From the NCBI GenBank assembly GCA_028709785.1, contig JAQUTK010000002.1, positions 1-64,000 on the forward strand: a stretch of DNA of 64,000 nucleotides, in the 5' to 3' direction. Numbering within the stretch: position 1 is the stretch's first letter; each line of letters opens with the position of its first letter. The translations under genes were made by a program, and so were the position numbers. The notes below the pieces were generated by a model. The model did not search any database and was not told where the DNA came from. It saw only the letters and a program-made list of their open reading frames with translations. Below, in pieces: positions 28,863 to 34,371 of this stretch. The DNA comes from Bacteroidales bacterium. Lineage in GTDB: Bacteria; Bacteroidota; Bacteroidia; Bacteroidales; JAQUTK01.

Positions 28863-30689
28863 TTACCTTTCACTATTTAATCCCTGCAACAACAGGGTTG
28901 TTTTTTTTGTCCCGATCAACTCATCAAGCTCTTCCCTTGATGCATTCTTTATCCGCTTTACGCTTTTAAACTGTTCGAGTAACAACTGCTTCGTCTTTAT
29001 TCCGATCCCTTTTACCGCATCAAGTTCGGACAAAACCTGACTTTTACTTCTCTTTTGTCTGTGAAATGTTATCCCAAAGCGATGTGCTTCATCTCTGAGT
29101 TGTTGAATCAACCGTAAAGACTCAGAGTTTTTGTCCAGATAAACAGGAGTCGGGTCACCGGGGAAATATATTTCCTCCAATCTTTTGGCAATACCAATGA
29201 TACTCATCTTTTCAAACACTCCGATACGTTGCAAAGCAGCACAAGCAGAGCCCAATTGTCCTTTACCCCCATCCACAATGACAAGCTGAGGAAGAGGCGT
29301 CTCTTCATTCGTTAAACGGATATATCTCCGGGTTAGAATCTCTTCCATGGAAGCAAAGTCATTGGGTCCCTCAACCGTTTTGATATTGAAATGACGATAA
29401 TCCTTTTTCGAAGGTTTGGCGTTTTTAAACACAACACAAGAAGCAACAGGAAAACTCCCCTGAATATTCGAGTTATCAAAACACTCAATATGCAAAGGAA
29501 GTTCTTTTAGTCCTAAATCCTTCTGCAAGCGAAGCAAAATCCGCGTCATGCGTTGTTCAGGATTCAGTTTCTCCGCTCTTTTTAGGATATCCATCTTGTA
29601 CTGTCTGACATTACGTACGGATAGATCCAGGAGTTGCTTGCGTTCTCCCCGTTGAGGGATTGTAAAGCGTACTCCTTTCAACTCCAGTTCGACAGAAAAC
29701 GGAACAATAATTTCACTGGCCGTACTTCCAAAGCGTTGTCTCATCTCTGTTATTCCAAGCGAAAGCAGCTCTTCTTTTGTTTCATCCAGCCGTCTTTTAT
29801 ATTCAAAAGTATAAGCCTGAACGATTGCGCCACGCACAACATGCAAAAAGTTTATATAGCCAGAGGCTCCTTCTTCATCATAAGAAAATACATCGACGTC
29901 ATTAATAATACTACTCACAATAGTCGATTTACATCGGTAGTTTTCCAGAATCTGGTATTTCTGCTTCACTTTCAGAGCTTCTTCATACCGATATTCTTTT
30001 GAAAGATCCGTCATCTCCTGAAAAAGACGAGCCACAATCACCTCTACGTTTCCTTTTACAATCTCTGTTATTTCAGAAATATTATTCACATATTCGCTTT
30101 CTGGCTGTAATCCTACGCAAGGTCCACCACACTTCTTAATATGGTATTGCAAGCACACTTTATATTTGTTTCTGACAATCTCTTCGGGATCCAACTTCAG
30201 CGAACAATTGCGCAATGGATACAGTTCGCCGATCAATTCAAGAACGGTCTTTGCCATAAACACCGAACTGTAAGGTCCGAAGTAAACAGAGCCATCGCGA
30301 ACAAACTGCCTTGTAAGAAAGACCCGGGGAAACCGTTCGTTTTTAATACAAATCCAGGGATATGTTTTATCATCCTTGAGCAGTACATTGTAGTGTGGCT
30401 TATGCTCTTTAATCAGGTTGTTTTCCAGCAAAAGAGCATCCTCTTCAGATTCTACTACTATATATTTCAGATCGGCAATATGTCGCACCATAACGCGCGT
30501 CTTTGCCGATGCAATATCTTTATTGAAATAGGATGAGACTCTCCTTTTTAGGTTCTTAGCCTTCCCCACATAGATAATCACGCCTTTATCATTCAGATAT
30601 TGATAAATACCCGGCAAATCAGGCAGACTACTTACAATTCCACGTAAATATTCATCCAGCCCTTTAAATCCTTTCGCATTATTCATCAT
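28863..30689 (-). CDS. uvrC: excinuclease ABC subunit C
   Basis: This nuclease subunit of nucleotide excision repair cuts on both sides of a lesion. In 608 residues it has a GIY-YIG domain (LPGIYQYLNDKGVIIYVGKAK, about 21-41), a Cys cluster (CLQYHIKKCGGPC, about 177-189) and a UVR segment (EYRYEEALKVKQKYQIL, near 235). The RNase H-like 5' nuclease domain has CFDNSNIQGSFPVAS near 408, and a C-terminal helix-hairpin-helix pair has LDAVKGIGIKTKQLLLEQF. All key residues appear intact. The start is the first ATG of two adjacent ones. The 75-bp gap upstream, after mnmG, holds the parS site. Confidence 0.97.
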   Translation of the reverse strand: MMNNAKGFKGLDEYLRGIVSSLPDLPGIYQYLNDKGVIIYVGKAKNLKRRVSSYFNKDIASAKTRVMVRHIADLKYIVVESEEDALLLENNLIKEHKPHYNVLLKDDKTYPWICIKNERFPRVFLTRQFVRDGSVYFGPYSSVFMAKTVLELIGELYPLRNCSLKLDPEEIVRNKYKVCLQYHIKKCGGPCVGLQPESEYVNNISEITEIVKGNVEVIVARLFQEMTDLSKEYRYEEALKVKQKYQILENYRCKSTIVSSIINDVDVFSYDEEGASGYINFLHVVRGAIVQAYTFEYKRRLDETKEELLSLGITEMRQRFGSTASEIIVPFSVELELKGVRFTIPQRGERKQLLDLSVRNVRQYKMDILKRAEKLNPEQRMTRILLRLQKDLGLKELPLHIECFDNSNIQGSFPVASCVVFKNAKPSKKDYRHFNIKTVEGPNDFASMEEILTRRYIRLTNEETPLPQLVIVDGGKGQLGSACAALQRIGVFEKMSIIGIAKRLEEIYFPGDPTPVYLDKNSESLRLIQQLRDEAHRFGITFHRQKRSKSQVLSELDAVKGIGIKTKQLLLEQFKSVKRIKNASREELDELIGTKKTTLLLQGLNSER

Positions 30690-30735
30690 TACAACCTTCT
30701 AATTCAGCGCATTTAGCTACCTTCTCTTAAGTAAG

Positions 30736-30751
30736 TGTTTCACGTGAAACA
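30736..30751. promoter_or_regulatory. parS site (ParB binding)
   Basis: TGTTTCACGTGAAACA is an exact 16-bp palindrome identical to the widely conserved bacterial parS consensus. With one flanking base on each side the palindrome is 18 bp (30735-30752). It sits in the 75-bp gap between mnmG and uvrC, not within a gene. In other bacteria parS sites cluster near the replication origin and near mnmG (gidA). No parA, parB or rsmG lies in this window. Confidence 0.85.
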
Positions 30752-30764
30752 CAACACAAACAGG

Positions 30765-32639
30765 TTACCTACCCATTAAAACCAGCAATATATTAATATC
30801 GCTTGGTGAGATTCCCGGGATCCTTCCCGCTTGTGCCAATGTTTCAGGGTTGATCTTTTCTAGTTTTTGCCTAGCCTCTGTGGAAAGCGCTTGGATATCG
30901 CGGTAATTAATTTTCCCACGAATCCGAATATGCTCCAGTCTATTGACACGATCCGCAATTAACCGTTCACGTTCAATATAGCCTTCATACTTCAGTTCGA
31001 TCTCAGAAGCTTCTATAATTTCTTCTTTTCGATCCGGAATTTCATTAAGCAAAGAAGCGAGAGCAGGAATAGTATTTGAAAGAGCACTAATTGAAAGCAT
31101 CGGACGAAGAACCAACGAATGCAGCTTCACGCCTTGTTTAAGAGGCGTATCTCCAATGCTCTCAAGGAAACCGTTCACAAGGTCCGGTCTTACAGAATAA
31201 GAACGAACAAACTCAACAATTCTATTGATCCATGCTTCTTTTTCAATCAATAAAGAGTTTCGTTCAGAAGAGGCTAATCCAATGCCAAAAGATTTCGCCG
31301 ATAATCTGCGATCAGCATCGTCTTGTCTCAGCAGTATTCTGTACTCCGCACGGGAAGTAAACATACGATAAGGCTCATCGACACCTTTCGTAATTAAATC
31401 ATCAATTAAAACCCCTATATACGCCTCATCCCTTCCTAAAACAAACGACTCACCTCCGTGCGTATGCATATGTGCATTAATACCAGCCATCAGTCCCTGC
31501 CCACCTGCTTCTTCATATCCGGTAGTACCATTGACCTGTCCGGCTAAGAAGAGTCCGCTGATCAATTTTGACTCCAGATTAGTACACAACTGCGTTGGAT
31601 CGAAGAAATCATATTCGATAGCATATCCGGGTCTATACAATCTGACGTCTCGGAATGCAGGAATCTTCTTCAAGGCATTCCACTGAATTTCGATTGGCAA
31701 TGAAGAAGAAAAACCATTCAAATAATAGACATTGCTGTTTTCCGATTCAGGCTCCAAAAAGAGAGGATGAGATTGTTTATCAGCAAAAGTGATTATTTTT
31801 GTTTCTACAGAAGGACAGTAGCGAGGTCCGATACTTTTAATTTGACCATTATAGAGCGGTGATTCAGCAAGAGAAGACCGCAATATATCGTGAACATCAC
31901 TGTTCGTAGAAGTAGTATAGCAGGGTAACTGTTTCAGCGGACTTGCAATTTCCGGCAAAAAAGAGAAACCATGAGCGTACTCTTCCCCATCCTGACGTTC
32001 CATCAAATCCAAATCAACGCTTCGAATATCTATACGAGCAGGAGTACCGGTCTTCATCCGTTGAACAGACAAACCAGCTTCTTTCAATTGATCAGAAAGT
32101 CCGTACGAAGAAGATTCGGCAATACGTCCACCCGGCAACTGAGTGCGTCCGAAATGCATTATACCATTCAAGAAGGTTCCATTCGTAAGCACAACAGACG
32201 GGGCAAAAAACTCCAGTCCGAGAGAAGTACGAACGCCCTGAACAGAATTCTTATCAATAATCAGAGAAGTAACCGTATCTTGCCAGATAGCAAGACGGTC
32301 GGTATGATCAAGCACATGACGCCATTCCTGAATAAAACGATTTACATCGCATTGAGAACGTGGGCTCCACATAGCCGGACCTTTTGATCTGTTGAGCATA
32401 CGAAATTGCAAAGAACTACGATCCGTCACAATTCCCATAAAACCACCCAACGCATCAATTTCACGAACGATCTGTCCCTTTGCAATTCCACCCACAGCAG
32501 GATTACAACTCATCTGAGCAATCCTGTTCATATCCATTGTGATCAGAAGCGTCTTTGAGCCTAAGTTCGCGGCAGCCGCAGCAGCTTCACAGCCTGCATG
32601 ACCAGCGCCTACGACAATAACATCATACTTAAATACCAT
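30765..32639 (-). CDS. mnmG: tRNA uridine-34 carboxymethylaminomethyl modification enzyme
   Basis: This is the FAD-dependent partner of MnmE, which puts the carboxymethylaminomethyl group on wobble uridine 34. In 624 residues it has the FAD-binding VVGAGHAGCEAA at the N-terminus, GGIAKGQIVREIDALGG, GTFLNGIMHFG, and GLFLAGQVNGTTGYEEAGG. The helical C-terminal domain ends in RIPGISPSDINILLVLM. The frame is open from 32669, but the promoter box at 32667-32674 overlaps that ATG, so the ATG at 32639 (MVFKYDVIVVGAG) is preferred. Confidence 0.97.
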   Translation of the reverse strand: MVFKYDVIVVGAGHAGCEAAAAAANLGSKTLLITMDMNRIAQMSCNPAVGGIAKGQIVREIDALGGFMGIVTDRSSLQFRMLNRSKGPAMWSPRSQCDVNRFIQEWRHVLDHTDRLAIWQDTVTSLIIDKNSVQGVRTSLGLEFFAPSVVLTNGTFLNGIMHFGRTQLPGGRIAESSSYGLSDQLKEAGLSVQRMKTGTPARIDIRSVDLDLMERQDGEEYAHGFSFLPEIASPLKQLPCYTTSTNSDVHDILRSSLAESPLYNGQIKSIGPRYCPSVETKIITFADKQSHPLFLEPESENSNVYYLNGFSSSLPIEIQWNALKKIPAFRDVRLYRPGYAIEYDFFDPTQLCTNLESKLISGLFLAGQVNGTTGYEEAGGQGLMAGINAHMHTHGGESFVLGRDEAYIGVLIDDLITKGVDEPYRMFTSRAEYRILLRQDDADRRLSAKSFGIGLASSERNSLLIEKEAWINRIVEFVRSYSVRPDLVNGFLESIGDTPLKQGVKLHSLVLRPMLSISALSNTIPALASLLNEIPDRKEEIIEASEIELKYEGYIERERLIADRVNRLEHIRIRGKINYRDIQALSTEARQKLEKINPETLAQAGRIPGISPSDINILLVLMGR

Positions 32640-32666
32640 ATGTTTATATAATTCCTTAATCGGGTG

Positions 32667-32674
32667 CAAAGGTA
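32667..32674 (-). promoter_or_regulatory. -7 box of the mnmG promoter
   Basis: On the bottom strand this reads TACCTTTG, 28 bases upstream of the chosen mnmG ATG. It overlaps the last codons of ybeY (which ends at 32675), so mnmG can be expressed apart from ybeY. Confidence 0.6.
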
Positions 32675-33097
32675 TTACTTTTTCAGCAAAGAAAGGGCCT
32701 CATTCTCATTCGCTTCCATAACTTTGCGCGCCTGTGGTGTTTTATCCTCAATTCCACAAAGGTGCAGAATGCCATGAATAATGACTCGGTTGAGTTCCTC
32801 TTCATAGCTTGTTTTAAATTGAAGGGCATTCGAGCGTACAGTATCAAGACTAATAAATATATCACCGGATATAATACCGTCTTCTGTATAATCAAACGTT
32901 ATGATATCGGTATAATAATCATGATTGAGATATTCCTTGTTTATCTTGAGTATATGGTCATCATCACAAAAGATATAGGTGATCACGCCGATTTTCATCC
33001 CGTGAGCTGTAGCGACGGTTTTGATCCAGGAGTTCATCTCACGTTTCTTAAACGAAGGAACCTTTGCGGTTCCTTCAGCGCAATAAGATATTGCCAT
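32675..33097 (-). CDS. ybeY: endoribonuclease YbeY, rRNA maturation
   Basis: This metal-dependent endoribonuclease is needed for 16S rRNA 3'-end maturation and ribosome quality control. The family block is VIIHGILHLCGIEDK, with two metal-ligand histidines in HxxxH. The third ligand, usually His in GYDH, is replaced by Asp in GIEDK. The frame opens at 33160, but the ATG at 33097 (MAISYCAEGT) gives a normal 140-residue protein. It also avoids a 28-base overlap with the membrane-protein gene upstream. VNISIVDDEEI-like strand and NKEYLNHDYYTDIITF are typical. Confidence 0.93.
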   Translation of the reverse strand: MAISYCAEGTAKVPSFKKREMNSWIKTVATAHGMKIGVITYIFCDDDHILKINKEYLNHDYYTDIITFDYTEDGIISGDIFISLDTVRSNALQFKTSYEEELNRVIIHGILHLCGIEDKTPQARKVMEANENEALSLLKK

Positions 33098-33132
33098 TAT
33101 ATTGATATTTAGAGTGTTACGTAAAGAATACA

Positions 33133-34371
33133 TTATCCCTGATAGAAGAACAGGTAACAAAGCATGATTGCTGCAATGATGCCTGCCGCATCGGCCAGTA
33201 ATCCACAGCCCACAGCATAACGAGTCTGTTTCACACCAACACTGCCGAAATAGAGAGCGAGAATGTAAAAGGTCGTATCAGAAGCCCCTTGAAACAAACA
33301 GGAAAGGCGACCAACAAACGAATCAGCTCCATAGTTTGTCATCGCGTCCACCATCATGCCTCTTGCGCCACTGCCACTCAAAGGTTTCATGAAAGCTGTA
33401 GGAAGCGCAGGCACAAACTCAGTATTAAACCCAAGCGCCTGAAAAAGAAGACCGATTGAATCAACAACAAAATTCATCGCTCCAGAAGCCCTAAAGACAC
33501 CAATACTAACTAAAATGGCAACCAAATAGGGTATAACAGTAACGGCTGTATGGAAGCCCTCTTTGGCTCCTTCAATAAACGCATCATAGACATTGATTTT
33601 CTTTCTGATACCGGATGCTATAAAACCGATAATGATCGAGAAAAGCAGGAAATTAGAAATGGCACTGGAATAATGAGAAACCGTTGCTTCAGGCAAACTC
33701 TTTACTAAAAACAACAATCCGACAATCAATATGGATAAACCACCAAACGTAGAGAGTATCACTTTGTCCCAGATACGGATCCGTTGATAGATACATACAG
33801 AAAGAATACCGATCAGAGTGGAACAGAAAGTAGCGATAAGAATAGGCAAGAAAACATCAGAAGGGTTAGCAGCTCCCAGCTGGGCTCGATAGACCATAAT
33901 GCTGATAGGAATCAGGGTAAGTCCGGAAGTATTGATGACCAGAAACATGATCATGGGGTTAGAAGCCCTTGTCTTGTCCGTATTCAACTCCTGAAGTTCC
34001 TTCATCGCTTTCAGTCCAAGGGGAGTTGCGGCATTATCCAAACCAAGCATATTTGCCGAGAAGTTCATAAACATCGAACCGCTGGCAGGATGTCCTTTGG
34101 GTATATCAGGAAATAAGCGGGAAAACAACGGATAGACAAAGCGTGACATCGTATTGATGAGTCCCCCTCTCTCCCCGATTTTCATAATACCCAACCACAT
34201 GGAAAGAACTCCTGTTAGTCCCAGAGAAATCTCAAACGCGGTCTTTGCCGACTCAAACGTCCCGTTCATCATGGTGGTGAAGATCTCAAGATCACCTAAA
34301 AAAAGCATCTTTACGGTTGCTACAGCAAATGCTATAATGAAAAACCCTATCCAAATGTAGTTTAGTACCAT
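33133..34371 (-). CDS. fused SpmA/SpmB-like membrane protein
   Basis: This polytopic membrane protein of 412 residues has two nucleoside-recognition (Gate) domains. The N-terminal half resembles SpmA, with FMNFSANMLGLDNAATPLGL (about 103-122), and the C-terminal half resembles SpmB, with PTAFMKPLSGSGARGMMVD and FQGASDTTFYILALYFG. In spore formers these two proteins are separate and affect spore-core dehydration. This organism should not sporulate, so the substrate is unknown, and a transport role is inferred. The frame is open from 34452, but a promoter box (34430-34437) lies inside it. Of the ATGs downstream (34410 and 34371) I prefer 34371 because the first membrane helix follows at once. 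Confidence 0.88.
   Translation of the reverse strand: MVLNYIWIGFFIIAFAVATVKMLFLGDLEIFTTMMNGTFESAKTAFEISLGLTGVLSMWLGIMKIGERGGLINTMSRFVYPLFSRLFPDIPKGHPASGSMFMNFSANMLGLDNAATPLGLKAMKELQELNTDKTRASNPMIMFLVINTSGLTLIPISIMVYRAQLGAANPSDVFLPILIATFCSTLIGILSVCIYQRIRIWDKVILSTFGGLSILIVGLLFLVKSLPEATVSHYSSAISNFLLFSIIIGFIASGIRKKINVYDAFIEGAKEGFHTAVTVIPYLVAILVSIGVFRASGAMNFVVDSIGLLFQALGFNTEFVPALPTAFMKPLSGSGARGMMVDAMTNYGADSFVGRLSCLFQGASDTTFYILALYFGSVGVKQTRYAVGCGLLADAAGIIAAIMLCYLFFYQG

Follow-up and report, generated by a model that had tools for sequence, protein, structure and literature searches.

A canonical parS site beside mnmG in a Bacteroidales genome and the conservation of this arrangement across Bacteroidota

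In the canonical model of chromosome segregation, ParB nucleates at parS and spreads along the DNA, ParA drives segregation and, in many species, Smc is loaded (PMC7333895). A proposed ancestral origin cluster comprises parA, parB, gidA, gidB, yidC, rnpA, rpmH, dnaA and dnaN (PMC2099444), and a palindrome related to parS, the Noc-binding site (NBS), is bound by a ParB paralogue. For gut bacteria including two Bacteroidetes, passages of a Hi-C study place parS at skew-defined origins and state that dnaA is not in all cases a marker of the origin (PMC10197239).

Here, we describe a site in a 64-kb window that opens contig C65, which is 223.6 kb long and one of the 70 contigs of a 3.55-Mb Bacteroidales assembly. 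The site itself is of an already known kind, a canonical parS. It shares with the ParABS systems of Bacillus subtilis and Caulobacter the same 16-bp sequence, a tolerance at positions 5 and 12, a ParB whose parS recognition positions hold R and G, and a location close to the origin; it differs in that parAB neighbour the site in those systems but lie 0.2–1.3 Mb off in Bacteroidia, and in that the genome has a single strict site and no detected Smc partner. Although NBS is a related palindrome, the sequence here is that of parS, and the genome's own ParB carries R and G where Noc has Q and R at two specificity positions.

As in the ancestral origin cluster, gidA (mnmG) is still origin-proximal with parS beside it; unlike that cluster, the arrangement in Bacteroidia is broken up, with dnaA and parAB gone and mnmG and parS left, whereas dnaA is still approximately 60 kb from the sites in G209 and approximately 27 kb in G235, both of which belong to other classes. 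Bacteroides caecimuris and Muribaculum intestinale, as described in the same Hi-C passages (PMC10197239), likewise have parS-like sites at a skew-defined origin, no known condensin and a dnaA that is not always at the origin; those passages mention no neighbouring gene, whereas here parS is tied to mnmG across the phylum.

Our analysis revealed that parS stays beside mnmG near the origin across almost the whole of Bacteroidota, even where the genes for ParA, ParB and DnaA lie far away. We consider the arrangement worth reporting: mnmG plus parS offers a simple genomic landmark for the Bacteroidota origin region, where dnaA is misleading, it opens ParABS function to testing in those gut and environmental Bacteroidota that apparently have no Smc, and it presents a centromere that, throughout a phylum, kept the same gene beside it once the genes for its own partners had left. 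The literature searched, which excludes the 2007 parS survey of Livny and colleagues, contained no description of phylum-wide mnmG anchoring of parS, and the novelty of this anchoring is unproven.

The site and its partner proteins

The site, TGTTTCACGTGAAACA, is intergenic and lies between uvrC and mnmG (Table 1), with 13 bp separating it from the mnmG stop codon and 46 bp from the uvrC start codon. Extended by 1 bp on each side, it forms the 18-bp palindrome GTGTTTCACGTGAAACAC. An earlier note on this DNA had reported the exact 16-mer, its extension and its place beside mnmG, all of which we recovered, and both flanking gene names are backed by curated HMMs with scores over the cut-off.

Table 1. 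Coordinates in the window of the parS site and the neighbouring genes
Feature	Position	Strand	Evidence or remark
parS site	30736..30751	.	exact match; palindrome of 18 bp at 30735–30752
uvrC	28863..30689	-	TIGR00194, 503.9 bits (cut-off 285.45)
mnmG (gidA)	30765..32669	-	TIGR00136, 759.5 bits (cut-off 524.85)
ybeY	32675..33160	-	TIGR00043; directly upstream of mnmG

Within the window, this is the sole match to TGTTTCACGTGAAACA even when up to three mismatches are allowed. The genome-wide scan that the earlier note had named beforehand as a check returned, over all contigs, one exact copy and not a scatter of sites, against a chance expectation of approximately 0.001 occurrences per 3.5 Mb; the next-best match in the genome has two mismatches (C67:145791). 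Scanning for strict parS-type sites, defined as matches to GTTNCACGTGNAAC, returned the same single site and no others, while the named relatives have 0–2 strict sites, and elsewhere in the phylum such sites are usually clustered. The suggestion that the palindrome might be a separate, accessory ParB loading point was thus not sustained, as it is the sole strict site found in the assembly. TGTTTCACGTGAAACA is probably the sole parS of the chromosome, allowing that others could lie in gaps between the contigs or be more degenerate.

The parAB genes are, as the earlier note had stated, not nearby: parB and parA are adjacent on contig C23, and dnaA is on contig C30. The genome has one ParB that carries the full set of three domains (ParB_N, HTH_ParB and ParB_C), and the gene adjoining parB encodes a ParA-type ATPase (AAA_31, 240.8 bits). 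When the protein was aligned to Caulobacter ParB, the residues at the four positions that discriminate parS from NBS were R, Y, K and G, of which the R (equivalent to position 173) and the G (equivalent to position 201) are parS-type recognition residues according to published criteria (PMC7383237). We only infer strict parS specificity for this ParB because a Caulobacter ParB in which only position 184 carried lysine (RTKG) bound several sites (PMC7383237). The top-scoring NCBIfam model for the protein was Noc, yet its score fell below the cut-off (240 vs 315 bits).

Canonical Smc, searched for with TIGR02168, returned no match over the cut-off in this genome and eight other Bacteroidia (nine genomes); among condensins, the search was confined to Smc. 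Elsewhere on C65, outside the window, a weak match to the DnaA profile (28.5 bits; C65:198011–198304, L005) lies in a 267-aa frame and is possibly a DnaC/IstB-type or other AAA+ ATPase.

Chromosome position and GC skew

In Bacteroidia with large or complete contigs, parS lies 0.43–1.59 Mb from dnaA and 0.22–1.3 Mb from parB. Sampled GC skew increases from before to after parS in five relatives (permutation p 0.0037, 0.0094, 0.0097, 0.0003 and 0.03), and when the contrast is taken at dnaA or parB instead, the two complete chromosomes give a negative value and one of approximately zero, respectively. The skew changes sign at 0.72–0.79 Mb in JC049 and near 2.74–2.78 Mb in G300, with parS at 0.765 and 2.764 Mb, respectively. 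Data for Parabacteroides gordonii depended on the sampling: fine sampling placed the cumulative-skew minimum at 2.34 Mb, between sites at 2.250 and 2.580 Mb and approximately 90 kb from parS, while the best single split under coarse sampling fell at 3.21 Mb, which counts against an origin at parS.

On contig C65 itself, the cumulative-skew minimum is at 65.7 kb, compared with 30.7 kb for parS (block-permutation p approximately 0.007), and the curve is nearly flat between approximately 35 and 145 kb. Because this minimum is broad, the origin is not pinned to parS in this genome; DnaA-box clusters, sought on C65 to place oriC, were not found there. The proposal that the site marks the origin-proximal region is supported by the skew rise in the relatives, with less precise agreement from the genome itself, in which the broad minimum falls within approximately 35 kb of the site. 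The earlier note had also named dnaA as a landmark for plotting, a purpose for which it is unsuitable because it is far from the skew switch in Bacteroidia.

Conservation of the mnmG–parS pairing

Within the order, the exact 16-mer was found in 33 of 198 genomes, while its reversed-letter control was found in none (0/198). We inspected 30 loci around an exact site (29 from the 198-genome search and one from the same genus), and mnmG lay within approximately 0.6 kb of the site in 27 of them, with uvrC alongside in one more. A motif-independent search, in which 80 mnmG loci from GTDB genomes were gathered by protein similarity, returned a parS-like site (up to two mismatches, within the fetched DNA) at 77/80 loci against 0 for the backwards control; these loci share kinship, and the counts do not represent independent events. 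Nearly all of the sites (75/77) are 3′ of mnmG, 64 of those within 50 bp, at a median of 12 bp past the gene. Sites with at most one mismatch were present in 54 of 75 1-kb flanks, compared with 0 of 375 shuffled flanks.

Conservation stops at the 16-bp motif, outside which information content drops sharply, leaving a weak A/T preference in the adjacent bases, and variation among sites is nearly all at positions 1, 5 and 12. Three Bacteroidales mnmG loci (L075, L088 and L108) had no parS-like site within the fetched flank, and the genome of Porphyromonas catoniae (L075) had no GTTNCACGTGNAAC anywhere.

Across the phylum, GTTNCACGTGNAAC is present in 111 of 118 sampled genomes, with the backwards control giving no match in most genomes and never more than 2 in any one. 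In other families of the class, mnmG lies alongside in 24 of the 27 loci fetched around sites (in one of the 27, the site adjoins ybeY at a contig end), and many of these genomes carry two sites that flank mnmG and are separated by approximately 1.9 kb. The corresponding figure for other classes is 23/30 loci. In other lineages, parS is 5′ of mnmG (between ybeY and mnmG) or on both sides of it. In five of the apparent exceptions (G128, G209, G227, G292 and G235), wider fetches located mnmG close to a second site or no more than a few kb off, after which few real exceptions to the pairing remain. The position of parS beside mnmG is no local curiosity, being the normal arrangement across the phylum. 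Its presence on one or both sides of the gene suggests that a pair of parS sites may have flanked mnmG ancestrally, with later losses.

Both Parabacteroides genomes also carry a second site, GTTTCACGTGTAAC, approximately 0.3 Mb from the mnmG site (P. gordonii, G199:C1:2579853; P. goldsteinii, G201:C11:221884), which in P. gordonii is across the skew switch from the mnmG site.

Function and evolution of the site

We consider it highly probable that the palindrome is the primary, and probably sole, chromosomal parS for ParA/ParB-mediated segregation of the origin. The ParB encoded on C23 would nucleate at the palindrome, load in its CTP-bound form and then spread across the mnmG–uvrC region, and the ParA encoded next to parB would separate the origin-proximal complex after replication.

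Three other readings of the palindrome were weighed. A chance sequence without a role has nothing but the short length of the motif in its favour, and its probability is practically nil given the comparative data that refute it, namely approximately 0.001 expected occurrences per genome, a backwards control absent from all 198 genomes and sites at 77/80 mnmG loci where the control gave 0. An element acting in RNA, be it a hairpin or terminator at the 3′ end of mnmG or part of the uvrC leader, would agree with the place of the site just 3′ of mnmG in most relatives and with the 7-bp hairpin that its transcript can form; however, no terminator-like site and no Rfam match were detected at the palindrome, and its RNA folding is no better than that of shuffles (z 0.23). 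Moreover, in the mnmG orientation, C5..A12 variants, which would break an RNA pair, are not rarer (28) than T5..G12 variants, which would leave a G–U pair (19), and the palindrome precedes mnmG or flanks it in other lineages. On the variant counts, the missing terminator and Rfam matches and the folding score, we rejected this role as very improbable.

It appears unlikely that the site is conserved chiefly so that ParB can load an arm-aligning condensin there, though this reading has points in its favour: ParB–parS loads Smc–ScpAB in B. subtilis (PMC7333895), and the Hi-C passages on B. caecimuris report an origin domain that contains parS, together with a secondary diagonal, where no known condensin was found (PMC10197239). 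Against this, neither this genome nor the eight other Bacteroidia returned a TIGR02168 match over the cut-off. As Smc was not detected, canonical Smc loading is unlikely, and the site is most likely conserved for origin segregation by ParA or for a role that involves a condensin of another kind.

For the evolutionary path, we infer, as the most parsimonious account, that parS lay beside mnmG in an ancestor in which mnmG was part of the origin gene cluster, and that the mnmG–parS pair stayed origin-proximal while dnaA and parAB moved off in Bacteroidia; parS would still be beside mnmG because the pair kept its place when the other genes left. Active selection for the link to mnmG seems quite improbable. 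Under such selection, ParB assembled at mnmG might tie the centromere to the expression of mnmG or of nearby genes; alternatively, mnmG plus parS might constitute the defining origin landmark of Bacteroidota. Both versions would explain why sites lie to one side of mnmG or the other and seldom far away.

Two minor observations concern mnmG and the gap behind it. The mnmG ORF as listed (start region 32639–32669) begins with TTG, and the alignment of its relatives begins at approximately residue 11; codon 11 is an ATG, and translation probably starts there, 30 bases further in. The gap at 30690–30764 is free of genes, uvrC following directly after mnmG. In many relatives this gap measures approximately 600 bp, and in one of them, L103, it contains the adenine phosphoribosyltransferase gene apt, itself flanked by parS sites on both sides.
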